Shown: positions 16,684 to 30,029 of the stretch, piece by piece
How the letters are laid out: each line of letters begins with the position of its first letter
Numbering within the stretch: position 1 is the stretch's first letter
Assembly: GCF_024171765.1 (NCBI RefSeq)
Contig: NZ_JAMTCI010000002.1
Location: forward strand, 372,001-436,000
Direction of reading: 5' to 3'
Length of the DNA: 64,000 nt
From: Williamsia deligens
Lineage (GTDB): Bacteria; Actinomycetota; Actinomycetes; Mycobacteriales; Mycobacteriaceae
Notes under the pieces: model-generated
The model's input: only the letters and a program-made list of their open reading frames with translations
Told to the model about the DNA's origin: nothing
Databases searched by the model: none
Made by a program: the position numbers and the translations under genes

Positions 16684-17484
<801 letters not shown>

Positions 17485-19062
17485 TCAGGCCCCTCGGATC
17501 AGGTCGGCGCACTTCTCGGCCATCGTCATGACCGTGATGTTCGGGTTGACCGTGGGCAGCTTGGGCATCGCCGACGCGTCGACGACCCGGAGGCGCTGCG
17601 TCCCCCGGACGCGGAGCTGCGGGTCGAGCACAGCCATCCGGTCCCCGTCGACGCCCATCCGGGCCGTCGCGGCCGGGTGGTACACGGTGTTGTGCGTCTT
17701 GTGCATGTAGTCGACGAGGTCGTCGTCGGTGACGGCGTCGGGCCCGGGCGCCAGTTCCCGCGCGATCCACCCCTTCAGGGCCTCCTGCTCGGCGATCTCC
17801 CGCGCCAGGCGGATGCCGGCGGTCATTACGCGCTCGTCGTGGTGGTCGGGGTCGGTGAAGTACCGCGGGTCGACGCGGGCGCGGTCCCGGAAATCGCGGC
17901 TGCGCAGCTTCACCGTGCCGCGGGACCGCCCCTGGGTGACGTTGGGCGTCAGGCAGAACCCGTTGTCGGTGGTGGGGTATCCCCACCGCAGGGTGTTCAT
18001 GTCGAACGGGACGCTGCCGTAGTGCATCATCACGTCGGGCAGCGGCAGGTCGGGTTCTGTCGTCGCGAACACCCCGATCTCCCACCACTGACTCGAGCTG
18101 GTCACCATCGGCTTCGACGCCTCCCAGAAGACGAGGCCCTCGACGTGGTCGTCGAGGTTCTCCCCCACCCCCGGCGAGTCGACGCGGACGTCGATACCGA
18201 ACTCCCGCAACTGATCCGCAGGGCCGATGCCGGAGAGCATGAGCAGCTTGGGGGTGTCGATCGCACCGGCGGTGACGATGACCTCGCGGCGCGCTCCGAC
18301 GACGTCGAACCCGGTGAGGTCGGGACGCTGGTAGCGCGCACCCGTGGCGGTCGTGCCGTCGAAGGTGATCTGCTGCACCCAGCAACCGGTGCGGATCTCG
18401 AGGTTGGGTCGTCGTCCCATGATCGGGTGCAGGTACGCATGCGAGGTCGACATGCGCTTGCCGTCCTCACCGGCGTTGATCTGGAACCAACCGGCACCGT
18501 TGCGGACGGTCTCACCCCGGTTGAACCCCACCGTCGGCAGGCCCACCGCCGCGGCTGCGTCGAGAAGTGCTGCACCACAGGGGTCGAGCGGAGGGATGTC
18601 GCGCAGACGCACCGGCCCGTCGTGGCCGTGGTCGCCGGGCGCATCGTTGTTCTCCACACGCCGGACCAGCGGATGGACGTCCGCGGAGCCCCACCCGGTG
18701 AGACCCATCTGCTCCCACTCGTCGAGGTACTCCGCGGGCGGCCAGAAAGCGATGCACGAGTTGTGCGACGAACACCCACCGAGCACCTTCGCCCGGGCGT
18801 GCCGCATGAAGCTGTTGCCCCGCTCCTGCGGTTCGATCGGGTAGTCCCAGTCGTACCCGGAGTCCAGCAGGTGCATCCAGTCGCTGAGGATGAGCACCGC
18901 CGGGTCGTCGACGTCGCTCGGTCCGGCCTCGACGAGACAGACCGTCACCGACGGGTCCTCGGAGAGTCGGGCGGCGAGAACACATCCGGCGGTTCCCCCG
19001 CCGAGGATGACGTAGTCGAACTCCCCTGCGGTGACGGTGGTGTCGGTCAACGGATCGGCCAT
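17485..19062 (-). CDS. codA: Choline oxidase (GMC flavoprotein)
   Basis: A 525-aa GMC oxidoreductase that oxidises choline to betaine aldehyde (and on to betaine) with O2, producing H2O2. It looks like choline oxidase rather than the membrane choline dehydrogenase BetA. The FAD-linking His is H100 in K-V-L-G-G-C-S-S-H-N-S. The active-site residues known from the Arthrobacter enzyme (E312, H351, V464, H466, N510) have counterparts E309, H347, V460, H462 and N506 with matching surroundings (H-V-E-G, M-M-H-Y-G-S-V, N-T-V-Y-H-P, V-N-P-N-I-T). The start ATG 19062 has GGGAG upstream. It is the last gene of the choline operon, 4 bp after the permease stop. The symbol codA is shared with cytosine deaminase. 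Confidence 0.93.
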   Translation of the reverse strand: MADPLTDTTVTAGEFDYVILGGGTAGCVLAARLSEDPSVTVCLVEAGPSDVDDPAVLILSDWMHLLDSGYDWDYPIEPQERGNSFMRHARAKVLGGCSSHNSCIAFWPPAEYLDEWEQMGLTGWGSADVHPLVRRVENNDAPGDHGHDGPVRLRDIPPLDPCGAALLDAAAAVGLPTVGFNRGETVRNGAGWFQINAGEDGKRMSTSHAYLHPIMGRRPNLEIRTGCWVQQITFDGTTATGARYQRPDLTGFDVVGARREVIVTAGAIDTPKLLMLSGIGPADQLREFGIDVRVDSPGVGENLDDHVEGLVFWEASKPMVTSSSQWWEIGVFATTEPDLPLPDVMMHYGSVPFDMNTLRWGYPTTDNGFCLTPNVTQGRSRGTVKLRSRDFRDRARVDPRYFTDPDHHDERVMTAGIRLAREIAEQEALKGWIARELAPGPDAVTDDDLVDYMHKTHNTVYHPAATARMGVDGDRMAVLDPQLRVRGTQRLRVVDASAMPKLPTVNPNITVMTMAEKCADLIRGA

Positions 19063-19066
19063 GTGC

Positions 19067-20617
19067 TCAGACTCCCTCGGGTCCGGGGAACGGTTCGGCG
19101 GCGACGGCATCGGACTTCGTCTCCGATGCGTGGGATCGAAGCGTGCCCATCCCGCGGCTGCCGACGGTGAAGTACCAGAGGAGACCGACGCCCCCGATGA
19201 CGCCGATGTAGATGAACGCGGCCCACGTGTTGTACCAGGGTGCGCCGTAGACGGCCGTTCGCGGCCAGGCGAGGTTGATCGCCATCCCGATGCCCCACAG
19301 CACGGCGACGATGTTCACGGGCAGGCCCCAGCGGCCCATCGTGAAGTACCCGCCCGCCTTCAGGTCGGGCGGTGGCCACTGACCGCGGAAACGCTTGAGC
19401 AGCAACGGACCCGTCACCATCAGGTAGGCGATGTAGATCATTATGATGGCCACCGACGTCAGCAGCAGGAAGATGGTCGGCTGGTTGATGTTGATGACAA
19501 GGATCAGGATCGACAGGACCCCGATGAGGACCGACGGGATGACCGGCGCCTGGGTCCGCGGGTGCACCTTCGCCAGCGACTCGCCGAACGGCAGCGCGTT
19601 GTCGCGGGCCATGGCGAAGGTGAGCCGGATGGCGGCGGTGTGCACGGCGAGCGTGCACACGAACACCGCGACCACGATGCATATCAGGAAGATCTTGCCG
19701 ACGGGCCCGTACATGACGTCGAGGACGATCTGTTGCAGTCCACCCTGCGCGCCGAGCGCCGGGTCGGACAGGTTCGGCGCGGCGAGGATGGCGAACACGA
19801 GGATCGCTCCACCGATCACGAACGACGCCAGGATGGCCCGCAGGATCGCTGACGGCGCGGTCTTGCGCGGGTTGACCGTCTCCTCGCCGAGCGACGACGC
19901 GGTGTCGAAGCCGTACATCACGTACCCCGACGCCAGTGAGGCGATGAGGAACGCACCGAGGTAACCGCCGCTCTCCCCCGCGCCGTACCCGTTGGTGGAG
20001 AAGAACACCGCGGGGGTGCGCTCGATGTTGAACGCGAGGATGACCGCGATCAGCACGGCGGCGATGAGTTCGATGAACACCCCCGTGCTGTTGATGATCG
20101 ACATCAACCGGACACCGAAGGCGTTGATGGCGGTGGTCGCGAGCACAAGGATCGACCCCAGCAGAACGGCGTTCGACGGCGACACCACGGAGAGGTCGTC
20201 GGATCCGATGAGGCGGAACCCGCTCCAGATCTTGGGCAGGGTGGAGTCGATCGCCAGCACCACCGCCGACATCGTCACGATCGAGGCGGTGAGCATCATC
20301 CAGCCCGAGAACCACCCGACGACCTTGTTTCCGAGGATCTTCGCCCAGTTGTAGACCGATCCGGCGATCGGGTACTTCGCGGCGAGCTCCATGAAACACA
20401 GTGCGACGGCGAGCTGTCCGACGAAGACGATCGGCCAGCTCCACAGGTACGCCGCCCCGGCGGTGCCGAATCCGAAGTAGAAGAGCTGGAAGGTGCCGGT
20501 GAGGATGGAGATGTAGCTGACACCCGCGGCGAAGCTGGCGAACTTGCCGATGCTGCGGTCGAGGCTCTCCTTGTATCCGAAGTGCTCCATCCCGGTGTCG
20601 GGCGGTGACTGTGTCAT
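19067..20617 (-). CDS. APC-superfamily permease, probable choline or betaine uptake
   Basis: A 516-aa transporter with about 12 membrane helices of the amino acid/GABA permease branch of the APC superfamily. The N-terminus F-G-Y-K-E-S-L-D-R-S-I-G-K-F-A-S-F leads into helix 1, and a G-F-D-T-A-S-S-L-G-E-E-T segment marks the conserved substrate region in the central helices. ATG 20617 overlaps the betaine aldehyde dehydrogenase stop (ATGA) and the stop is 4 bp from choline oxidase. This position inside the operon suggests import of choline, betaine or a methylated amine. Substrate is inference from context; the family also carries GABA and amino acids. Confidence 0.85.
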   Translation of the reverse strand: MTQSPPDTGMEHFGYKESLDRSIGKFASFAAGVSYISILTGTFQLFYFGFGTAGAAYLWSWPIVFVGQLAVALCFMELAAKYPIAGSVYNWAKILGNKVVGWFSGWMMLTASIVTMSAVVLAIDSTLPKIWSGFRLIGSDDLSVVSPSNAVLLGSILVLATTAINAFGVRLMSIINSTGVFIELIAAVLIAVILAFNIERTPAVFFSTNGYGAGESGGYLGAFLIASLASGYVMYGFDTASSLGEETVNPRKTAPSAILRAILASFVIGGAILVFAILAAPNLSDPALGAQGGLQQIVLDVMYGPVGKIFLICIVVAVFVCTLAVHTAAIRLTFAMARDNALPFGESLAKVHPRTQAPVIPSVLIGVLSILILVININQPTIFLLLTSVAIIMIYIAYLMVTGPLLLKRFRGQWPPPDLKAGGYFTMGRWGLPVNIVAVLWGIGMAINLAWPRTAVYGAPWYNTWAAFIYIGVIGGVGLLWYFTVGSRGMGTLRSHASETKSDAVAAEPFPGPEGV

Positions 20618-22155
20618 GACTCGAACCATCCTGCCGTCGGTGCCGCGGTGTTGTTCCAGATGTGTTTGGTCTCCTGGTATTCCGCCAGTCCGGACGGGCC
20701 GAGTTCACGGCCGTTGCCCGATCGGCCGTAGCCACCCCACTCCGCGGCCGGTGTGTAGTAGCCGAAGTCGTTGATCCACACGGTCCCGTGGCGCATCCCG
20801 CGTGCGATGCGTTCGGCCCGTGCGGGATCGGCGGTGCGCACGCCGCCCGCCAACCCGTAGTGGGTGTCGTTGGCGAGCTCGAGCGCCTGCGCCTCGGTGG
20901 TGAACCGTTCCACGGTCAGGATCGGACCGAAGGTCTCGTCCTGGACGATGCGCATCGTGCGGTCGCAGTGGTCGAACACCGTGGGGGCGTAGAAATAGCC
21001 GTCCGCGAGGCGGGGGTCGTCGCGCTCGGGGTCGTCGAGCCGGCGACCACCCGTCACGAGCGAGGCGCCCTCGGCCAGTCCGGACGCGACATGGTCGACG
21101 ATCTTCTCGAGCTGTTGCTGCGAGACGAGCGGTCCCGTCCTGCTCGCGGGATCGGTTCCCGGGCCGACGACGATCGACTCCGCACGAGCAGCCACCGCGG
21201 CGACCAGACGGTCGGCGACGGACTCCTCGACGATCAACCGGGTGCCGGCGGAGCAGACCTGTCCGGAGTGCAGGAACACCCCGGTGACCACCTGGTCGAC
21301 CGTTGCCGCGAACTGCTCCTCGGTGCCGCAGGCGTCGGCGAAGACGACGTGCGGGTTCTTGCCGCCGAGTTCGACGAGCACGCGCGTCACGTGTTTCGCC
21401 GCGGTCGCCGCGATGACCTGGCCGGTCGCGAGACCACCGGTGAACGAGATGAGGTCGACGTCGGGGTCGTCGTTGAGTGCGTCGGACAGATCACGTCCCG
21501 CCCCGAGGACGAGGTTGGCGACGCCGGACGGGACGCCGGCCTCGACGAGCAGCCGTACGAAGGCGATGGTCGTGAGCGGGGTGACCTCGCTGGGCTTGAG
21601 CACCATGGTCGCCCCGGCGGCCAACGCCGGCGCCACCTTCCAGGAGATCTGCAGGAGCGGGTAGTTCCAGGGCGCGATCATCACGCAGACACCGACGGGT
21701 TCGCGGACCACCCTGCTGACGACGGCCGGGTCACCCACGTCGACGACGCGATCGGCGACTGTGGTGACGAGGTCGGCGTAGTAGCGGAACACCGCGGTGA
21801 CGTCGTCGACGTCGATGCGGCTCTCCTCGAGGGTCTTGCCGGTGTCGCGGGTCTCGGTCTCGGCGAGGGACTCACGATCGCGCTGCAGAAGTTCCGCGAC
21901 CCGCCGTAGGAGGTCCGATCTCTCGGCGACGGTCGTGGACCGCCACGGTGAGTCGTCGAATGCTCGGCGCGCGGCGACGATTGCGGCGCGGACGTCGGCG
22001 GGATCGGCCTCGGCGACCTCGGTGATGACGCTCCCGTCGGCCGGGTCGATCACCGCGCGCGTCCGACCCGACGACGCCCCCCGCCACTGTCCGTCGATGT
22101 ACAGATCGTCCACGTTCTCGATCTTTGCGCCTACGAGCACATGTCGCTCACCCAT
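20614..22155 (-). CDS. betB: Betaine aldehyde dehydrogenase
   Basis: A 513-aa aldehyde dehydrogenase that would oxidise betaine aldehyde to glycine betaine with NAD(P)+. The catalytic set is complete: N164 in A-P-W-N-Y-P, E262 in E-L-G-G-K-N-P, and nucleophile C301 in S-G-Q-V-C-S-A-G. The F-G-P and W-G-G-Y-G-R-S-G-N-G-R-E-L-G C-terminal blocks are typical of BADH-like enzymes. ATG 22155 overlaps the end of the Rieske gene by 25 bp; an internal GTG at 22140 is an alternative start and neither has a clear Shine-Dalgarno. It links choline oxidase to the demethylation steps. Its aldehyde specificity is inferred from context. Confidence 0.93.
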   Translation of the reverse strand: MGERHVLVGAKIENVDDLYIDGQWRGASSGRTRAVIDPADGSVITEVAEADPADVRAAIVAARRAFDDSPWRSTTVAERSDLLRRVAELLQRDRESLAETETRDTGKTLEESRIDVDDVTAVFRYYADLVTTVADRVVDVGDPAVVSRVVREPVGVCVMIAPWNYPLLQISWKVAPALAAGATMVLKPSEVTPLTTIAFVRLLVEAGVPSGVANLVLGAGRDLSDALNDDPDVDLISFTGGLATGQVIAATAAKHVTRVLVELGGKNPHVVFADACGTEEQFAATVDQVVTGVFLHSGQVCSAGTRLIVEESVADRLVAAVAARAESIVVGPGTDPASRTGPLVSQQQLEKIVDHVASGLAEGASLVTGGRRLDDPERDDPRLADGYFYAPTVFDHCDRTMRIVQDETFGPILTVERFTTEAQALELANDTHYGLAGGVRTADPARAERIARGMRHGTVWINDFGYYTPAAEWGGYGRSGNGRELGPSGLAEYQETKHIWNNTAAPTAGWFES

Positions 22156-23270
22156 TGGTGAAATTGCGCTATGTGGTGCTCGGCGGGCACCAACACCCCA
22201 CCGGCGGCGTAGGCCCGTGAGGACATGCCCGGCTGCGTCCGTTCACAGGCGTCGAAGTCCTGGACGTTCACGCGATGGAACAGGTCGACCCCGGCGGACA
22301 CGTCCGTCCCGTCGGCGACCACATCCGGTGCGTAGAGCCAGTCGCAGACCACAGTGGTGCGATCCACAGCACGAGGGAACATGCGGTGCACGATCACGTG
22401 GTCGGGCACGAGGTTGACGAAGACGGTGGGGTTCACCGTGATCGCGTAGTAGCGACGGTCGACCTCGGATCCGAGCCCGGGCAGCGCGGCCGCCCCCGCC
22501 GACCCGTCCACGGTGAACCCGTCGACCTCGGTGGCGAACTCGGCGCCGTGGCCCACGTAGTACTGCGCGGCGAGCCCGTCGGCGAACTCCGGGAGGACGG
22601 CGGTGAGTTCGGGGTGGATGGTCGCGCAGTGGTAGCACTCCATGAAGTTCTCGACGATGAGCTTCCAGTTGGCGGCCACCTCGTAGGTCTCGCGGTGTGC
22701 GAGCGCCAGATCGTCGACACCCCACCGGTCGATCATCGTCGCGTCACCCAGCCGATCGGTGACGGCCCCGATCACGGTGTCCTCGAACGACGGCGGGTCA
22801 TCGGCGAGGCAGACCCACAGATATCCCAGCCATTCGCGGGAGGTCACCGGCACCAGGCCATGGCGGGTGCGGTCGATGTCACCGAGGCTGGTCATGTTGG
22901 GCGCCGCGACGAGCGCGCCGTCGAGTCCGTAGGTCCAGGCGTGGTAAGGGCACTGCAGGTTTCGCCGCACTGCACCCGTCTCGTCGGTGCAGATCAGGGC
23001 CCCACGGTGGCGGCAGGCGTTGAGGAAGGCACGCAGTGACCCGTCACGCCCCCGGACGGCGAGGATGCTCTCGCCGCCGACCTCGACGGTGGCGAACCGG
23101 CCGGTCGAGGGCACGTCGGCGACGCGGACCGCACACATCCACCGCCGACCGAAGATGCGGTCGGTCTCGCGGGCGAAGACCGCCGGGTCGGTGTAGGCGG
23201 ACCCGGGCAGGGTCGGCAGCAGCAGGTCGTCGGTGGTGTCGGGCGTGGCGGTGGTGATGTCGGCGGTCAC
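22131..23270 (-). CDS. gbcA: Rieske-type glycine betaine demethylase, oxygenase subunit (GbcA-like)
   Basis: A 379-aa Rieske non-heme iron oxygenase alpha subunit expected to N-demethylate glycine betaine to dimethylglycine plus formaldehyde. The Rieske [2Fe-2S] ligands are C86-x-H88 and C107-x2-H110. The mononuclear iron site is formed by H214 and H219 (N-F-M-E-C-Y-H-C-A-T-I-H-P) with D338 in the V-Q-D-F-D-A-C-E-R segment. The Asp bridging motif E-N-F-M-E is intact. It starts with GTG immediately after the sarcosine oxidase stop. No GbcB-type fused reductase is nearby; instead a Rieske ferredoxin and a flavoprotein reductase are encoded across iclR. The substrate assignment comes from the surrounding pathway. 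Confidence 0.9.
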   Translation of the reverse strand: MTADITTATPDTTDDLLLPTLPGSAYTDPAVFARETDRIFGRRWMCAVRVADVPSTGRFATVEVGGESILAVRGRDGSLRAFLNACRHRGALICTDETGAVRRNLQCPYHAWTYGLDGALVAAPNMTSLGDIDRTRHGLVPVTSREWLGYLWVCLADDPPSFEDTVIGAVTDRLGDATMIDRWGVDDLALAHRETYEVAANWKLIVENFMECYHCATIHPELTAVLPEFADGLAAQYYVGHGAEFATEVDGFTVDGSAGAAALPGLGSEVDRRYYAITVNPTVFVNLVPDHVIVHRMFPRAVDRTTVVCDWLYAPDVVADGTDVSAGVDLFHRVNVQDFDACERTQPGMSSRAYAAGGVLVPAEHHIAQFHQWVSDMCS

Positions 23271-24446
23271 TCAGGTCCCCATTCCTGCGGTCTGTGCGGC
23301 GAGCGCGGGCCGGCGCGGGTCGAAGATGCCGATCGGATGCCGGGTGGTCCCCTCGAGCACGAGGTCGGCGAGGATCTCGCCGACCACCGGGACGAACTTG
23401 AACCCGTGGCCGGAGAACCCGCACGCGACGGCGACACGCTCGTGTCGTGGGTGGCGCGCGATGACGAAGTCGTGGTCGGGCGTCGTCGAGTACATGCAGG
23501 TGGCGGCGTGCAGCATCGCCGAGGCCGCGTCGTCGGACGATCCGACACCGGGGATCAGCCGTCGGACACGGTCGAGCATGGCCTGGGCCTCGTCGCCGTG
23601 GACGACGCGGTCGATCGTGTCCGGCGAGCAGTCGACGCCCTTGCGGAAGAACGCCGTCTTGACCCCGCCGTCGGGCCCGTCGATCGCCGGGAAGCCGTAG
23701 ATCTGCTCGCCGACGTCCGTCTCGTGGATGTAGATCGGCGAGTCGTCCATCCGCGGTGCCGTCGGGGCGAGGTCGAACCAGTACATGACCTGGCGCTCGA
23801 TGCGGATGCCCGTCTTGAGGTCGGCCAGCAGCTCGGGCGCCCAGGCGCCCGGGCAGACGACGAGCCGGTCGGCGTGGACCACCCCCTGGTCGGTGGTGAC
23901 CCGGACGGAGTCGCCGGTGTCGGCCCAGTCGAGCACCTCGATCCCGAATCGCAGGTCGGCGCCGGCGCGTTCGGCGAGTTCGAGATGGGCACGCACCGTC
24001 TCCTCCGGGCGCGCGAACCCGGCCAGGTGCTCGTACACCCCGATCTGGTCGCTCGCGGGCGCGAATCCCGGGAACCGGCGGGGGATCTCGTCGGCTCCGA
24101 GCACGTCGTGGCGCAGGTCGTACTCCCGTGCGGCGCGCAGTGATCCGTCCACGGTCACCGACGTCTCGGGCCCCGCGTAGAGCCCACCGGTGATGCGGTG
24201 CACCTCCCGCCCGGTGTCGGCGCCGAGCGCATCCCACAGCTCGTAGGCACGCAGCAGGAGCGGCACGTACGCGGGGTCCTCGAAGTAGGCCTGCCGGATG
24301 ATGCGCGAACCACCGTGCGACGACCCGCGGTCGTGGGCGGGGTGGAACCGCTCGAGTCCGACGACCGTCGCCCCACGCGACGCGAGGTGGTATGCCGCAG
24401 CCGATCCCATCCCCCCGAGGCCGATGACCACCACGGTCTCGTTCAT
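23271..24446 (-). CDS. Monomeric sarcosine oxidase / N-methyl amino acid oxidase
   Basis: A 391-aa DAO-fold flavoprotein that should convert sarcosine to glycine, formaldehyde and H2O2. The N-terminal dinucleotide site is [10 protein letters not shown] (residues 6-15). C317 in [13 protein letters not shown] matches the cysteine that binds FAD covalently in monomeric sarcosine oxidase (Cys315), and the [11 protein letters not shown] segment is the usual flavin contact. ATG overlaps the dimethylglycine oxidase stop (ATGA) and the next gene begins directly after its TGA. N-methyltryptophan oxidase is the main alternative; the pathway context favours sarcosine. Confidence 0.9.
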
Positions 24447-26926
24447 GGCGCGATCCCCTTCACTCGTCGGTTCTCCGGATCGACGGACACCGGTGGTGCG
24501 ATCTGCAGGGCCTGCGGGGTGCCGAACCAGTCGACGTCGACGGCATCTCCGGGCCGCAGTTCGTCGGGCCCCCACGCGTAGGCGATCGTGCGGCCCAGCG
24601 TCGGGGACCACGTCGCCGACGTGACGTATCCGACGTCGGATCCGTCGTGCCGCATCGGTTCACCGCCGAGCATCACCGTGGCGGGGTCGTCGGCGACGAT
24701 CGTGTGCAGTCGCCGCCGCACCGGCCGCTCCCGGACCGCGCTACGGCCGACGAAGTCGTGTTCCTTGCCGACGGCGAACGCCAGGCCCGCCTCGTGGGGT
24801 GAGTCGGTCCGCGACATGTCGGTCCCCCACGACCGGTACCCCTTCTCGATCCGCAGGCAGTCCATCGCGCCGCGCCCGGCCCAGACCGCCCCGACATACT
24901 CGGCGCGCTCGGAGAGGGCGTCGGCGAGGCGGACGGCGTCACAGCGACGAGTCGAGATCTCCCAGCCGAACTCGCCGACGTAGGACACCCGGGACACGAC
25001 CGCGGGCACTCCTGCGATCGTCGTCTCGGCACACCGGTAGTAGCGCAGTCCCTCCGGCGACAGGTCGAGATCGGTGAGCGGCCCGACGATCTCGCCGGCG
25101 CGCGGCCCCCACACCCCGACACACGTGGTGTCGTCGGTGATCTCGCTGATCGCCACGTCCGCGCCGTCGGCGCGTGCCCGGCAGATCGCCGCGCCGAGAC
25201 GGGTGACGTCGAGGGGACCGTTCACTCCGACGAGGAGCCGGTCGTCCCCCAGGCGTGCGACGGTGACATCGCTGAGGATCCCGCCCGACTCGTCGAGCAT
25301 GAGCGCGTAGACGACCGCGCCGACCGGGCGGTCGAGATCGCGGGTCACCAGGGGTCCCAGGACCGCGACGGCGTCTGTGCCGGTGACCTCGACCCGGGTG
25401 AGCGAGCTCATGTCGTACATCGCGCCGACGGCGCGGGTCGCGACCGCCTCGGACAGGACGATCGGCGACCACTCGCGGGTGAACCACTCCGGGAACGCCG
25501 GCGTGTCGACCGTGAACCGTTCCCGCAGTGCGGCGTTGGACCCGAACCACAGGGGCCGCTCGAGTCCGTGGGACACGCCGAGGTGGGCGCCGCGGCGCAG
25601 ATGATCGGCGTGCAGCGCGGAGGTCCGCAGATCACGGGCGTCGCGGGGTTGCGCACGCGGGTGGACGATGTCGTAGACCTCCACGAACGCGCGCGACGAC
25701 CGCGCCACGACCGCCTCCGCCGACAACTCCGCGTCCGCGAACCGGCTGACGTCACACCCGGAGACGTCGACGCCGGGCGTCCCGTGGACCATCCAGTCGG
25801 CGACAGCCGACGCAGCACCCGCCGACTGTGTGACCCAGATGGCCTCGGCGACCCAGAACCCGGCCAGGTAGGGGTGGGGACCGAGCATGGGACCACCGTC
25901 CGGGGTGAAGGAGAAGATCCCCGTGAAGCCGTCGCCGATCTCGGCGTCCCGCAGCGCGGGCAGCACCCGCTGCGACTCCCGCCAGGGGTCGTCGAACGAC
26001 CGTGGGTCGAAGGGCAGCATCGACGGCATCGGCTGTCCGGCGGTGTCGTCGTAGAGGGTCGCCATGTCGACGACGACGGGATCGTGCCCGTACCACCCGA
26101 TCCCGATCCGATCGCCGTGCTGCCGGTAGTACAGGTCGGCGTCCTGGTGGCGCAGGATCGGCGCGGTGGCGGCCGCGTGCCCCGACCGGCGGTCGGCGAT
26201 GGCCCGCGCCCCCGGCACCGGGGTCGTGGTGACGTAGTCGTGGCCCATCGGGACCAACGGGACAGTCAGCCCCACCATCCCGCCGAGCTGAGCACCCCAG
26301 AAGCCACCACAGGACACGACGATGTCGGCGTCGAGGACGCCGGCGTCGGTCCGTACACCCACCACATGGTCGCCCGAGGTGAGCACGCCGAGGACGCAGG
26401 TGTCGCCGAGGAAGCGCGCCCCACCGGCCTCCGCGCGCCGACGCTGCACCGCGATACAGGTCAGTGCGTCGGCGAGACCGTCGTCGGGGGTGTGCAGACC
26501 GCCCAGCACGACGTCGCGGTCGAGGAGCGGGTGCAGACGAGCGCACTCGTCGGCGTCGACGACGCGGGCCCGCCTCCCCCAGGCCGCCGCCCAGCCGGCC
26601 TTGCGATGCAGTTCGTCGAGACGTGCAGGCGTGGTCGCGATCTCGAGGCCGCCGACCGCGTTGAAGCACAGGTCTGCCTCGCTGGTCAGACCGCGGAACT
26701 TCTCCACCGTCGCCGCGGCGAGATCGGAGAGCGTGCGCGAGACGTTGGTCGCGAACACCAGCCCGGGTGCGTGACTGCTGGATCCGCCCGCGGCGGGGAG
26801 CGGTCCGCGGTCGATGACCGTGACGTCACCCCAGCCACGCAGGACGAGTTCGTCGGCGAGCGAGGTACCGACGATCCCGGCGCCGATCACCACGACCCGC
26901 GGTCCGTGCCGCGCATCGACCCTCAT
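24443..26926 (-). CDS. Dimethylglycine oxidase (FAD plus folate domains)
   Basis: An 827-aa bifunctional enzyme matching Arthrobacter dimethylglycine oxidase (about 830 aa). The N-terminal half oxidises dimethylglycine to sarcosine: the FAD loop is V-I-G-A-G-I-V-G (about residues 13-20) and H52 in [10 protein letters not shown] aligns with the FAD-linking His. The C-terminal half (from about residue 450) is a GcvT-like folate-binding domain that captures the one-carbon unit as 5,10-methylene-tetrahydrofolate, ending with an aminomethyltransferase beta-barrel. It is the first gene of the six-gene choline unit, preceded by two IclR-like operator sites. The one-carbon product could feed ThyX, ThyA and serine synthesis. 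Confidence 0.92.
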
Positions 26927-26947
26927 GCGTCACCCCTGCCCGTGGTG

Positions 26948-26983
26948 GTTGCTCACTGCGCAACCGGTTGCTCAACACGCAAC
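26948..26983 (-). promoter_or_regulatory. Tandem 17-bp operator pair upstream of the choline operon
   Basis: On the minus strand the two sites read GTTGCGTGTTGAGCAAC and GTTGCGCAGTGAGCAAC, each of the form GTTGC-N7-GCAAC, separated by 2 bp. The proximal site ends 21 bp before the dimethylglycine oxidase ATG. The same arrangement lies in front of the ferredoxin gene (27868-27903). The probable ligand is the IclR-family protein encoded between them; binding is inference. Confidence 0.75.
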
Positions 26984-27025
26984 AGGATGGGGCCCGTCGG
27001 CCCGGCCGTCAATCCGACGCGCGGA

Positions 27026-27796
27026 TCAGGCGGTGTATCCCAGACGCCCGCTCACGGCATCGGCCGCGCTGATCGCCGCCGCGGACAACGCGGGGATCCG
27101 ATCCGCCCCCATGCGGAAGGTGGGTCCCGAGATGCTCAGCGCCGCCACGACATCACCGGTGTGGTCGCGCACCGGCGCCGCGACCGCGGTGAGCCCGTCC
27201 TCGAGCTCGTCCCGCGCGGCCGCCCACCCCTGACCGCGCACCGTCGCCAACTCCTCACGCAGCGCCGGTTCCGTGACGATGGTCGCGGGCGTGAAGCGTT
27301 CGAGCGCGCCGAGGTACGGGGCGAGACGGGCCTCGGCGAGTCCCGCGAGGAGCACCTTGCCGCTCGAGGTGGCGTGCGCAGGGCAGCTCTGGCCGACGAA
27401 CGTGCGTAGCGCGATACCCGCGCCACCGTTCGCCTCGGTGACGTTGACCGCCCGATCGGCGTCGAGGACCGCGAGGTTGACGGTCTCCCCCACCTCGTAG
27501 GCGAGCGGTTCGCAGATGTCGCGACTCTCGCGGCCGAGGTCGCGACGCGACATGGTCGCGCCGGCCAACCGCACCACGGTGAACCCGAGGCGGTACTTGC
27601 CCCGGTCGCTGATCTGCTCGACGAAACCGCGCGACTCGAGCACCGACACGAGGCGCGACACGGTCGATTTGTGGACGCCGAGGGCATCGGCGATGTCCGA
27701 GACACCCCCCTCACCGTCACGGCCCAGGATCTCGAGCACCTCGAGGGCCCGGTCGACCGACTGGACCGATGCGGCCGGTACGTCGCGTTTCGTCAT
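27026..27796 (-). CDS. IclR-family transcriptional regulator of the choline/betaine locus
   Basis: A 256-aa IclR-type regulator. The N-terminal winged helix-turn-helix (about residues 10-75) contains G-V-H-K-S-T-V-S-R-L-V-S-V-L as the recognition helix region. The C-terminal IclR effector domain contains the family segment S-S-G-K-V-L-L-A-G-L. It lies between the catabolic operon (same strand, 99 bp downstream) and the divergent ferredoxin/reductase pair. Both of those promoters carry identical-type GTTGC-N7-GCAAC pairs, so it most likely controls both arms. The ligand might be a pathway intermediate such as betaine or dimethylglycine. ACTGTA on the plus strand (TACAGT, 27806-27811) is a possible -10, 9 nt before ATG. 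Confidence 0.88.
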   Translation of the reverse strand: MTKRDVPAASVQSVDRALEVLEILGRDGEGGVSDIADALGVHKSTVSRLVSVLESRGFVEQISDRGKYRLGFTVVRLAGATMSRRDLGRESRDICEPLAYEVGETVNLAVLDADRAVNVTEANGGAGIALRTFVGQSCPAHATSSGKVLLAGLAEARLAPYLGALERFTPATIVTEPALREELATVRGQGWAAARDELEDGLTAVAAPVRDHTGDVVAALSISGPTFRMGADRIPALSAAAISAADAVSGRLGYTA

Positions 27797-27867
27797 GTTC
27801 CCGTCACTGTAGTTCGCGAGCCGCGCCGAGCCGCGCACTTGACGCGATGCCTCGCCGCTGCGACAGT

Positions 27868-27903
27868 GTTGCGCAATACGCGCAGCGTTGCGTGCAACGC
27901 AAC
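27868..27903 (+). promoter_or_regulatory. Tandem 17-bp operator pair upstream of the ferredoxin genes
   Basis: Sites at 27868-27884 (GTTGCGCAATACGCGCA, right arm degenerate) and 27887-27903 (GTTGCGTGCAACGCAAC) are separated by 2 bp, with the same spacing and orientation towards the gene as the pair before the choline operon. The proximal site ends 16 bp before the ferredoxin ATG, where a bound protein would block transcription or initiation. Confidence 0.7.
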
Positions 27904-27919
27904 AAGACAGGAGCTCCCC

Positions 27920-28312
27920 ATGACGCTGAGCGACATCACGACATCGCGCGGACCCCACAGTGCCCCTCACGGGGACTGCGCCGGGTATCTGCCCGTCGCG
28001 GCTGCCGACGCACTGGCCATCGACACACCTCTGCGCGTCGAGCTGACGGGACGGCCGCCGATCACCGTCGTGGCCACCGCGGACGGCATCTTCGCCGTCG
28101 ACGACACGTGCTCCCACCAGGACACGTCCCTGTCGGCGGGGTGGGTGGAGGACTGCGCGATCGAGTGCCCGCTGCACGAGGCGTGCTTCGACCTGCGTAC
28201 CGGCGCGGCGATGGGGCCACCCGCCACCCGGCCCATCGCCACCCATCCGGTGCGGGTCGTCGACGGCATCGTCGAGGTGTGGATGGACGACGCCGAGACC
28301 GACGCGGCGTGA
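27920..28312 (+). CDS. Rieske [2Fe-2S] ferredoxin
   Basis: A 130-aa soluble Rieske ferredoxin of the bacterial oxygenase-associated type. The cluster ligands are C64-x-H66 and C83-x2-H86, in C-S-H-Q-D and C-P-L-H-E-A-C-F. No membrane segment is present, and the first 20 residues are a variable extension. AGGAG stands 6 nt before ATG 27920. The stop overlaps the reductase GTG as GTGA. Next to a Rieske oxygenase that lacks its own reductase, it most likely shuttles electrons from the adjacent flavoprotein to GbcA. The partner assignment is inference from regulation and proximity. Confidence 0.92.
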   Translation: MTLSDITTSRGPHSAPHGDCAGYLPVAAADALAIDTPLRVELTGRPPITVVATADGIFAVDDTCSHQDTSLSAGWVEDCAIECPLHEACFDLRTGAAMGPPATRPIATHPVRVVDGIVEVWMDDAETDAA

Positions 28313-29502
28313 TCGGGATCGTCGGGGCGTCGCTGGCCGGGCTCACCGTCGCGCGCACCCTCCGGTCACTCGGCGTCGACGAGCCCGTCGTGTTCGTGGG
28401 GGCCGAACCGTGGCATCCCTACGACCGCCCGCCTCTGTCGAAGGAACTGCTGAGCTCCACGTACGAGGCGGCTCCGACGGCTCCGGACCCCGGGTGGGCG
28501 ACCCTGCTCGCCGACGGCGAGCACGACGCGTTCGACTGGCGCCTGGGCGTGTCCGCCACCGGGCTGTCACGCACCGGCGACGACGTGTCGATCCACACCG
28601 ACCACGGACACGTCCCCGCACGGGCGGTGGTGCTGACCACCGGCGCGCGGGCGATGCGACTGCCCGGGGATGACCTCGTCGGCGTCCACGCGGTCCGCAC
28701 CATCGACGACGCGCGACGGCTCGCCGCGGAACTGACGTCCGCTGAGGACGTCGTCGTCGTCGGCGCCGGGTTCATCGGGGCCGAGATCGCCTCGACCGTC
28801 ACCGGTCAGGGCAGACACGTCACCGTCGTCGAGCGCGCACCCGACCCCGGCGCCAGGGTGCTCGGACGCCGCCTCGCGTCCTGGGCTGTCGACCTGCAAC
28901 GACGCGCTGGGGTCGACGTGCGCACCGGCACAGGGATCGCCGGGTTCGAGTCCGAGGGCGGCGTGGTGCGGGGGGTGCGGTTGGCCGACGGGACGTCACT
29001 GCGCGCCGACGTCGTGGTCGTGGGTGTGGGCGCTGTGCCGAACACGTCCTGGGCGGCGGGATCGGCGGTGGCCGTCGACGACGGGTTCCTGACCGATCAG
29101 CGTGGTGCGACATCGATGCCCGGGGTGTGGGCCGCCGGTGACTGCGCGCGGGTCGTCGACGCCGCCTCCGGCGTCTCGACGCGCCACCAGCACTGGTCGG
29201 CGGCGATCGAATCCGCCCGCACCGTCGCCCACGGCATCGCCGGACTGGCCCCACCATCCCCGCGCGCGCCGTATGTGTGGAGCGAGCAGCACGGTCACCG
29301 CGTCCAGATCTGCGGGACCATTCCGCCCGACGCCGAGCCGACGGTGCTGGAGGGCTCGCTCGACGACGATGCCTTTCTCGCCGTGGTGGGCGATCCCGAC
29401 GCGCCCGACGCCGTGGTCGGTGTGGACTCACCCCGCAGCTTCACCCGTCTGCGCAAGTCGATGGACAGGCGGATGTCCGCCGTCGCCGCCGTCCACGCCT
29501 GA
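28309..29502 (+). CDS. NAD(P)H:ferredoxin reductase, FAD-dependent (oxygenase type)
   Basis: A 397-aa two-dinucleotide-fold flavoprotein like the BphA4/putidaredoxin reductase family. The FAD-binding N-terminus is G-I-V-G-A-S-L-A-G (about residues 3-11), Y-D-R-P-P-L-S-K is the characteristic motif after it, the NAD(P)H site is V-V-V-G-A-G-F-I-G-A-E (mid-protein), and W-A-A-G-D-C-A closes the second FAD contact. The C-terminal reductase domain follows. The start GTG 28309 overlaps the ferredoxin TGA. Together the pair forms the electron-transfer arm of a probable three-component Rieske system for betaine demethylation. Use of NADH or NADPH is not resolved. Confidence 0.9.
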   Translation: MIGIVGASLAGLTVARTLRSLGVDEPVVFVGAEPWHPYDRPPLSKELLSSTYEAAPTAPDPGWATLLADGEHDAFDWRLGVSATGLSRTGDDVSIHTDHGHVPARAVVLTTGARAMRLPGDDLVGVHAVRTIDDARRLAAELTSAEDVVVVGAGFIGAEIASTVTGQGRHVTVVERAPDPGARVLGRRLASWAVDLQRRAGVDVRTGTGIAGFESEGGVVRGVRLADGTSLRADVVVVGVGAVPNTSWAAGSAVAVDDGFLTDQRGATSMPGVWAAGDCARVVDAASGVSTRHQHWSAAIESARTVAHGIAGLAPPSPRAPYVWSEQHGHRVQICGTIPPDAEPTVLEGSLDDDAFLAVVGDPDAPDAVVGVDSPRSFTRLRKSMDRRMSAVAAVHA

Positions 29503-29537: not shown

Positions 29538-30029
29538 TCAGAACACGGGAGCCGCTGCACGAACGTGCTCGAACACCAGCGACGTCGTCGTGCCGGCGAC
29601 CTCCGGCCGGGAGTTGAGTGTCTCGACGAACTCCCGGAGCGCCTGGGTGTCCGGTACGGCCACGTGCAGCAGGTAGTCGTCGGTACCGGCGAGGAAGAAC
29701 ACGTCGATGATCTCCTCGCGGTGGCGGATCTGGCCGACGAAGTGCCGGATCTGACCGCGGGCATCGGACTGCAGGCTGACGGCCACCATCGCGCGGAGCG
29801 TCTGCCCGACCGCGGCGGGGTCGATGTCGGCGAAGAACCCGCGGATGACGCCGATCTCGACCAGTCGGCGCACGCGCCCATGGCACGTGGACGGGGCGAT
29901 CCCCACGCGATCCGCGAGCTCCCGGTTGGCCATGCGGCCGTCTGCCCGCAGCAACCGGACCAGTGCCCGGTCGACGTCGTCGAGCTCGACGAGCTCCGAG
30001 GGCCGAAGATCCTTCGGCATGGTGGTCAT
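29538..30029 (-). CDS. aldR: Lrp/AsnC-family regulator AldR
   Basis: A 163-aa Lrp/AsnC regulator. The N-terminal HTH (about residues 15-60) contains A-N-R-E-L-A-D-R-V-G-I-A-P-S-T-C-H-G-R-V, and the C-terminal RAM domain has the G-x-D-D-Y-L-L-H-V-A-V motif for ligand sensing. It is divergent from ald across 152 bp, exactly as AldR/Ald in mycobacteria, where AldR controls alanine dehydrogenase in response to amino acids. Start ATG 30029 has TAGAAT 8 nt upstream (leaderless); a second ATG at 30020 is possible. Its stop lies 35 bp from the reductase stop. Confidence 0.9.
   Translation of the reverse strand: MTTMPKDLRPSELVELDDVDRALVRLLRADGRMANRELADRVGIAPSTCHGRVRRLVEIGVIRGFFADIDPAAVGQTLRAMVAVSLQSDARGQIRHFVGQIRHREEIIDVFFLAGTDDYLLHVAVPDTQALREFVETLNSRPEVAGTTTSLVFEHVRAAAPVF

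Follow-up and report, generated by a model that had tools for sequence, protein, structure and literature searches.

The aerobic routes from glycine betaine to dimethylglycine listed in a passage of PMC12478193 are the Rieske system GbcAB and the methyltransferases BHMT and MtgBCD. In GbcAB/BmoAB of Pseudomonas and Chromohalobacter a group V Rieske oxygenase serves a betaine-to-glycine pathway, and GbcA pairs with a single reductase, GbcB. Here we describe a choline-to-glycine locus of Williamsia deligens (NCBI RefSeq assembly GCF_024171765.1, contig NZ_JAMTCI010000002.1, positions 372,001 to 436,000; this whole stretch of 64,000 nucleotides is called the window, and coordinates count from its first letter), in which a group V quaternary-amine Rieske oxygenase (OXY) appears to be served by a type IV electron chain, formed by a separate ferredoxin (FD) and a GR-type reductase (FDR):

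22131..23270, minus strand: OXY, group V Rieske oxygenase with Rieske and Ring_hydroxyl_A domains, proposed terminal oxygenase of a glycine betaine demethylase
27920..28312, plus strand: FD, stand-alone Rieske [2Fe-2S] ferredoxin of 130 amino acids (Pfam Rieske, 57.4 bits), proposed electron shuttle
28309..29502, plus strand: FDR, GR-type FAD/NAD ferredoxin reductase with Pyr_redox_2 and Reductase_C domains (scanned as the frame 27769-29502)

Several described systems share part of this combination. Stc2/Stc4 of Sinorhizobium meliloti, like the proposed OXY system, N-demethylates a quaternary amine by means of a group V oxygenase and provides the top PDB sequence for OXY (3vca), whereas Stc4 fuses FAD_binding_6, NAD_binding_1 and Fer2 domains and Stc3 is flavin-reductase-like, both unlike FD and FDR, whose profiles find no match in the 17 kb stc locus. 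The group Va systems CntAB/YeaWX and OxyBAC share with OXY an aromatic residue at the position of CntA Tyr203 (Phe in OxyBAC, according to a passage of PMC7948474), but YeaX is an FNR-Fer2 fusion, the substrates of CntAB and OxyBAC are carnitine or benzalkonium, and CntA is only distantly related to OXY (6y8j, 150 bits). Type IV chains, consisting of a GR-type FAD reductase and a [2Fe-2S] ferredoxin (as outlined in PMC2358900), occur in biphenyl and toluene dioxygenases, whose ferredoxin and reductase chains are matched by FD and FDR; their oxygenases are mostly alpha/beta aromatic dioxygenases, whereas OXY is of the quaternary-amine type, and the genes of its cluster are all assigned to something other than a beta subunit (by gene assignment, PF00866 not having been searched). 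Three-component Rieske dealkylation as such is known from dicamba O-demethylase and chloroacetanilide N-dealkylase (titles cited in PMC10952381). These two act on xenobiotics, unlike the proposed OXY, and the dicamba oxygenase matches OXY weakly (24.4 bits). The open literature searched, available in part, yielded no three-component betaine demethylase; a prior mention is possible in Shao 2018, which reportedly deals with GbcAB, or in Meskys 2001, which is said to treat Arthrobacter genes and betaine catabolism.

The oxygenase and its relatives

The best PDB sequences for OXY are 3vca/3vcp, 4qup (titled a demethylase), 3n0q and CntA; 3vcp, which has the same sequence as 3vca, is Stc2 according to a passage of PMC12445004. 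The Rieske ligands of OXY are C86, H88, C107 and H110 and its iron ligands H214, H219 and D338. These ligands and E211, C212 and C215 are invariant across 19 sequences, and the bridging Glu and the Cys, His and Cys are kept in 102/102 sequences of the OXY clade. A bridging Glu with a Cys-x-x-Cys is described for group V quaternary-amine oxygenases (passages of PMC10952381 and PMC7948474) and is likewise present in the GbcA/Stc2-like references, and OXY carries all the features by which the group is recognised, namely the Rieske ligands, the 2-His-1-Asp iron site, the bridging Glu and the Cys-x-x-Cys of some members. A structure prediction from a 15-row alignment (mean pLDDT, the predicted local distance difference test score, of 59.5) was too poor for a structural claim.

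The label GbcA, given to this oxygenase in an earlier note on the same DNA, does not hold. Against the NCBIfam GbcA model NF058607 OXY scores 213.3 bits, below the equivalog cut-off of 670, and two further clade members reach 238 and 218 bits, compared with 528 for a Paracoccus relative and 495 for a Sinorhizobium protein taken as Stc2 because it lies beside annotated stc4 and stc3. This cut-off alone is not decisive, because the six proteobacterial GbcA/Stc2-like references (389-528 bits) also miss it. The position of CntA Tyr203, which precedes the bridging Glu by two residues, is described in a passage of PMC7948474 as dividing group Va (aromatic residue; carnitine, choline and benzalkonium enzymes) from group Vb (Asn; GbcA, BmoA and Stc2). 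It holds Phe in 102/102 OXY-clade sequences (two duplicates among them) and Asn in 6/6 GbcA/Stc2-like references, Stc2 included, and OXY therefore lacks the Vb signature. A FastTree phylogeny covered 136 sequences, with no certified GbcA among them, and took E. coli YeaW as its root. The 102 OXY-clade sequences form one monophyletic group in it (local support 0.71, branch 0.48), which lies apart from the GbcA/Stc2-like group and joins a plasmid-encoded Priestia protein and two paralogues from actinobacteria (support 1.0). Within the clade, OXY of Williamsia serinedens is 85% identical to OXY of the genome studied here.

The Priestia protein, 44% identical to OXY, is encoded on a Priestia megaterium plasmid (Bacillota; locus L171) in the order DMGO-SOX-OXY-BCCT (DMGO, dimethylglycine oxidase; SOX, sarcosine oxidase) together with glycine-cleavage genes. 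At this locus profiles find neither FD nor FNR, nor any FDR above 36 bits, and a 330-amino-acid Pyr_redox_2 flavoprotein is encoded nearby.

Ferredoxin and reductase as partners of the oxygenase

The best PDB sequences for FD are ferredoxins (5bok and CarAc, 1vck), and its cluster ligands C64, H66, C83 and H86 are invariant in 16 sequences. FDR, which starts at the GTG at 28309 and overlaps the FD stop codon, matches TodA (3ef6, 176.7 bits) and the ferredoxin reductase 1d7y (154.6 bits) and has no Fer2 domain in a Pfam scan. The pair thereby presents both components of type IV as defined by Kweon et al. in 2008, a separate [2Fe-2S] ferredoxin and a GR-type FAD reductase without an Fe-S domain. 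FD also passes the NCBIfam equivalog cut-off for the ferredoxin of 3-phenylpropionate/cinnamic acid dioxygenase (116.1 vs 113 bits) and is therefore probably misnamed by automatic annotation; relatives carry annotation as aromatic ring-hydroxylating dioxygenases, and the system as a whole is likely to be mislabelled by such annotation.

Both genes accompany OXY well beyond Williamsia. Among 18 relative loci with OXY at least 60% identical (neighbourhoods of about 10 kb), FD lies nearby in 16 and FDR in 14; at one locus without FD (L041) the contig ends inside OXY, and the genome concerned (G005) has a strong FD (185.6 bits) on another contig. We extended the comparison to a named set of 80 actinobacterial loci from 21 genera, the best 80 of at least 570 confirmed matches, all at least 64% identical and 40 of them from Streptomyces. 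Within about 10 kb of OXY, 60 of these have both FD and FDR, 4 FD only, 3 FDR only and 13 neither (4 of the 13 being shortened stretches), which leaves FD and/or FDR close to OXY in 67/80, and both genes occur together at one or more loci in 15 of the 21 genera. A profile made from five FNR genes of the W. deligens genome finds no FNR-type (GbcB-class) reductase within the same distance of OXY at any of the 80 loci, and in a positive control the profile finds the reductase beside 7/7 proteobacterial group V oxygenases; a GbcB model with 0 matches at E<=1e-80 among 100 genomes from the phylum was silent in control genomes too, and its result is not used. More distant relatives, represented by 25 loci (L054-L061 and L214-L230, several on short contigs), have no FD and no FDR above 23 bits, with an FNR gene in 3 and none in 22, and the partnership of FD and FDR is thus a property of the OXY clade. 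The three-component arrangement put forward in the earlier note is thus supported across the clade, where the oxygenase neighbourhoods hold the ferredoxin/reductase pair and not GbcB, and we regard the three-component inference as well supported at the level of sequence.

The three genes also appear to have been inherited together. After removal of duplicates, FD, FDR and OXY are all present in 75/99 clade loci, with FD and FDR on one strand in every one of the 75; OXY shares that strand in 29 of them, 25 of which form a contiguous FD-FDR-OXY block. Tree distances correlate at 0.82 for OXY and FD and 0.83 for OXY and FDR (0/999 permutations). Because common genome ancestry inflates such correlations, we compared the two arrangements inside Streptomyces, where each of the three trees divides the 17 divergent loci from the 15 co-directional ones (0/999 label permutations), the outcome to be expected of genes that move as a set. 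Of 11 co-directional loci compared from other genera, 6 stand closer to the co-directional Streptomyces type, whichever of the three trees is taken. In a set of 61 genomes (that of W. deligens itself and 60 relatives), FD exceeds 178 bits in 18 of the 19 with OXY of at least 60% identity, and a close FD occurs in 0/42 of the others (best 126 bits; distant homologues of OXY are present in three of the 42). Because the FD profile was made from 16 of those 18 genomes, there is some circularity in the presences, and none in the absences. Counted by genus, FD is found in 10/11 with OXY vs 0/40 without (Fisher p 9e-10), and one Williamsia, G003, lacks both genes.

Substrate, electron donors and competing readings

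The pathway in which OXY would act is encoded around it as follows:

17485..19110, minus strand: choline oxidase, a GMC oxidoreductase (704 bits to 2jbv over 28-541 of 541; Pfam GMC N and C domains)
19067..20629, minus strand: amino-acid-permease-family transporter (AA_permease_2, 135.9 bits; TIGR03428, 525 bits, under the cut-off of 740)
20614..22155, minus strand: betaine aldehyde dehydrogenase-like (BADH) aldehyde dehydrogenase (top NCBIfam model TIGR01804, 542.8 bits, under the cut-off of 668.6)
23271..24446, minus strand: SOX, monomeric sarcosine oxidase-like flavoprotein (7exs, 310 bits; 1el5, 240 bits)
24443..26926, minus strand: DMGO, dimethylglycine oxidase with a folate-binding domain (1pj5, 798 bits over 8-824; GCV_T and DAO domains)
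27026..27796, minus strand: IclR-family regulator (IclR_C and HTH_IclR domains), found also in many related loci

Open-reading-frame, Pfam and NCBIfam scans confirmed all eight genes on which the earlier note had built the locus; its gene list stood in that respect and omitted the IclR gene, which sits between the minus-strand operon and the divergent FD-FDR pair and separates the two arms. From 26926 to 17485 the minus-strand order is DMGO, SOX, OXY, BADH, permease and choline oxidase, with open reading frames that overlap by 4-44 bp or else abut. The sequence matches make the identities of choline oxidase, which aligns over its full length with a characterised enzyme, and of DMGO firm. The assignment of SOX as a sarcosine oxidase is good at family level; it also scores above the cut-off of the NCBIfam N-methyl-L-tryptophan oxidase model (450 vs 257). 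For the permease, choline or betaine is a plausible substrate.

The locus reads as a complete choline-to-glycine catabolic unit, and it is likely, in our estimate, that OXY works in it as a group V betaine demethylase fed by FDR and FD, with IclR in control of both arms. OXY would remove one methyl group of glycine betaine as formaldehyde, yielding dimethylglycine. Electrons would pass from NADH to the FAD of FDR, to the Rieske [2Fe-2S] cluster of FD and on to the Rieske cluster of OXY, and from there, if the subunit geometry of CntA applies, through the bridging Glu211 to the mononuclear iron of the neighbouring subunit. Such a chain would be of type IV in the scheme of Kweon et al., with three components and no FNR-ferredoxin fusion reductase. 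The gene and family assignments, the clade-wide linkage, the correlated trees, the sites shared by both arms (below) and the lack of a linked or canonical GbcB all fit this proposal.

OXY is assigned to the step from betaine to dimethylglycine because the cluster offers no other candidate for it, and on this gene context betaine is, with high probability, its substrate. Of the 80 named loci, 54 have DMGO linked to OXY, and 30 of these 54 have no choline genes in the stretch examined; 6 of the 80 show neither DMGO nor choline genes there. The strongest competing reading keeps the three-component enzyme and gives it another quaternary amine (choline, a carnitine-like compound or a plant betaine), betaine being demethylated in another way, for instance by a homocysteine methyltransferase. 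Three observations count for this reading and against betaine: the Phe at the CntA Tyr203 position, shared with OxyBAC and tied in a passage of PMC7948474 to carnitine, choline and benzalkonium enzymes and not to GbcA; a homocysteine-methyltransferase-family gene in the W. deligens genome (PF02574, 106.6 bits, in a frame of 380 amino acids), which offers a possible alternative betaine route; and 20/80 loci with choline genes and no DMGO within the stretch examined. Yet a choline monooxygenase would be redundant in an operon that already encodes choline oxidase, the 30 loci with OXY and DMGO in the absence of choline genes count against this reading, as does a locus outside the 80 (L205), and at the co-directional locus L231, when followed further downstream, DMGO appears about 12 kb on. 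On balance the linkage pattern points to the betaine step and not to choline, while the Phe signature argues the opposite by analogy with group Va, and we consider a different substrate rather unlikely. L205 itself, from Mycobacterium sp. AT1 (G453), is a second OXY copy with a contiguous FD-FDR-OXY block, DMGO and, by eye, serine-hydroxymethyltransferase-, formyltetrahydrofolate-deformylase- and serine-dehydratase-like genes, with no choline genes in the stretch.

Exceptions to the partnership weigh against betaine demethylation by OXY, FD and FDR as a fixed trio. Genome G014, a single contig that is 99% complete, has the OXY operon and neither an FD (E<=1e-15) nor an FDR (E<=1e-70), which makes its locus L050 a real exception among the 18 close relatives. 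Mycolicibacterium sp. P9-64 (G451, locus L084) and the metagenome-assembled genome G463 likewise have no FD at E<=1e-15, and L050 and L084 are both choline-to-glycine operons with OXY. Among the 13 genomes without FD and FDR at the locus, which include G451 and G463, 6 have weak FD matches only (67-95 bits). In five others a strong FD (164-178 bits) is found elsewhere: about 12 kb away and with FDR in Planosporangium, at a second OXY copy in one Mycobacterium, and, for three further genomes, close to IclR, to choline-type genes or to DMGO. At 5 of the 11 non-Streptomyces co-directional loci (L068, L073, L076, L092 and L139), FD is nearer the divergent Streptomyces type. In Paenarthrobacter, bmoA and bmoB bear consecutive gene numbers (a passage of PMC11945447). 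OXY operons without a close FD must therefore use another donor, or the partner is replaceable.

These operons favour a reading in which OXY is a betaine demethylase fed mainly by a general FNR-type reductase, with FD and FDR auxiliary or serving another enzyme, and so do the moderate promiscuity of reductases noted in part of the review PMC12445004 and the five FNR-type genes that the GbcB model finds in the W. deligens genome. The best of these five, on a different contig, reaches 174 bits, where the cut-off is 500 and the reductases beside two proteobacterial GbcA/Stc2-like oxygenases reach 410 and 324 bits; a GbcB homologue elsewhere in the genome that alone supports the oxygenase would, by the earlier note, refute the three-component reading, and the GbcB model gave these matches below its cut-off. 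That best gene adjoins TetR-like and radical-SAM-like genes (by eye) and no choline genes, FNR genes are missing around OXY in the named set, and the partners seen to occur and vary together with OXY, and to share sites with it, are FD and FDR, which makes a mainly FNR-fed enzyme quite improbable. The genome has 8 Rieske-domain genes, OXY and FD among them; the others were identified, by eye, as two KshA-like oxygenases, a Rieske domain beside NirB, QcrA and two fusions, and FD is therefore left with no other evident client. The idea that FD and FDR belong to an unrelated aromatic dioxygenase was dropped, as no such oxygenase was seen by eye among these eight. At L204:4749-8760, on contig C1 of the same genome near 2.59 Mb, this FNR gene with the top GbcB score stands together with another GR-type reductase, which scores 326 bits on the FDR profile, and the TetR-like and radical-SAM-like genes beside them look, by eye, like a mycofactocin cluster. 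The chance that OXY is an ordinary GbcA with an overlooked GbcB is very slim: GbcA is its best NCBIfam model, but 213 of 670 bits, a separate clade, the missing Asn signature and the low GbcB scores in the genome contradict it.

With three-component betaine demethylation by OXY, FD and FDR as the preferred reading, a broader proposal, whose prospects we judge to be evenly balanced, is that the clade represents an actinobacterial betaine demethylase lineage independent of GbcA and Va-like, with a different mode of ammonium binding, in which a BphA3A4-type pair of ferredoxin and GR-type reductase replaced an FNR reductase at the base of the clade, and which forms a widespread unnamed route of aerobic betaine degradation in Streptomyces, Nocardia, Amycolatopsis, Williamsia and others. 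Were this so, a second, non-GbcA Rieske lineage would help to fill a gap in betaine catabolism in the phylum; Arthrobacter Rue61a, for example, grows on betaine with a predicted pathway that is incomplete (according to a passage of PMC3534580). The idea that actinobacteria have no GbcAB at all is untrue, given the two-component bmoAB type of Paenarthrobacter. The OXY system would also be a natural case of a Rieske oxygenase group exchanging its whole electron-transfer chain with its chemistry probably kept, a transition postulated by Kweon et al. in the case of aromatic dioxygenases (a passage of PMC2358900).

Operator-like sites and neighbouring genes

The two arms of the locus have in common a set of operator-like sites:

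26949..26963, minus strand: site 1, 5' of DMGO, TTGCGCAGTGAGCAA, one of three exact genome sites
26968..26982, minus strand: site 2, 5' of DMGO, TTGCGTGTTGAGCAA, one of three exact genome sites
27888..27902, plus strand: site 3, palindrome TTGCGTGCAACGCAA, whose end lies 17 bp upstream of the ATG of FD

Exact copies of the consensus TTGCGNNNNNMGCAA (pattern TTGCG-N5-MGCAA) number three over the whole 4.41 Mb genome, and a single stretch of 1 kb contains them all: sites 1 and 2 precede DMGO, and site 3 precedes FD. As the pattern had itself been derived by eye from the sites in the window, this count is descriptive, and enrichment across genera serves as the test. At the 5' end of FD (-300 to +250), TTGCG-N5-CGCAA occurs with at most one mismatch in 45/99 clade loci (3, 5 and 1 for three controls) and without mismatch in 17/99 (controls 0, 0 and 0). 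A near-identical palindrome stands at FD in other genera, and the pattern recurs at DMGO, choline-oxidase-like and IclR genes in clade loci. Scans of the DNA at hand are less telling: with one mismatch the window gives 6 matches vs 3.4 expected (19/100 shuffles reach this), and over the genome a reversed control pattern gives 5 matches vs 4 for the real pattern, the real ones being the three sites here. A 12-bp palindrome tried as an alternative, GCAACNNGTTGC with at most 2 mismatches, had 33 matches vs 26.5 expected (reached by 9/100 shuffles) and was replaced by TTGCG-N5-MGCAA.

Operator-like sites common to both arms, as the earlier note had supposed, are present, whereas the separate promoter that it had assigned to the electron-transfer arm found no counterpart in a sigma-70-like scan of 26900-28000 (0 sites). 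The neighbouring IclR protein is the obvious candidate to bind the operator-like sites; the unit is probably regulated by it, and IclR would then govern both arms through the TTGCG-N5-MGCAA sites.

Beyond the pathway genes, a DapB-family reductase (16684-17454; DapB_N and DapB_C) lies just downstream of choline oxidase. At the other end, an Lrp/AsnC-type regulator (29538-30029, minus strand) adjoins FDR and is divergent from an apparent alanine dehydrogenase gene that starts at about 30183 (read by eye); an Lrp gene adjoining FDR is kept in 7/18 of the close-relative loci (L036-L053).

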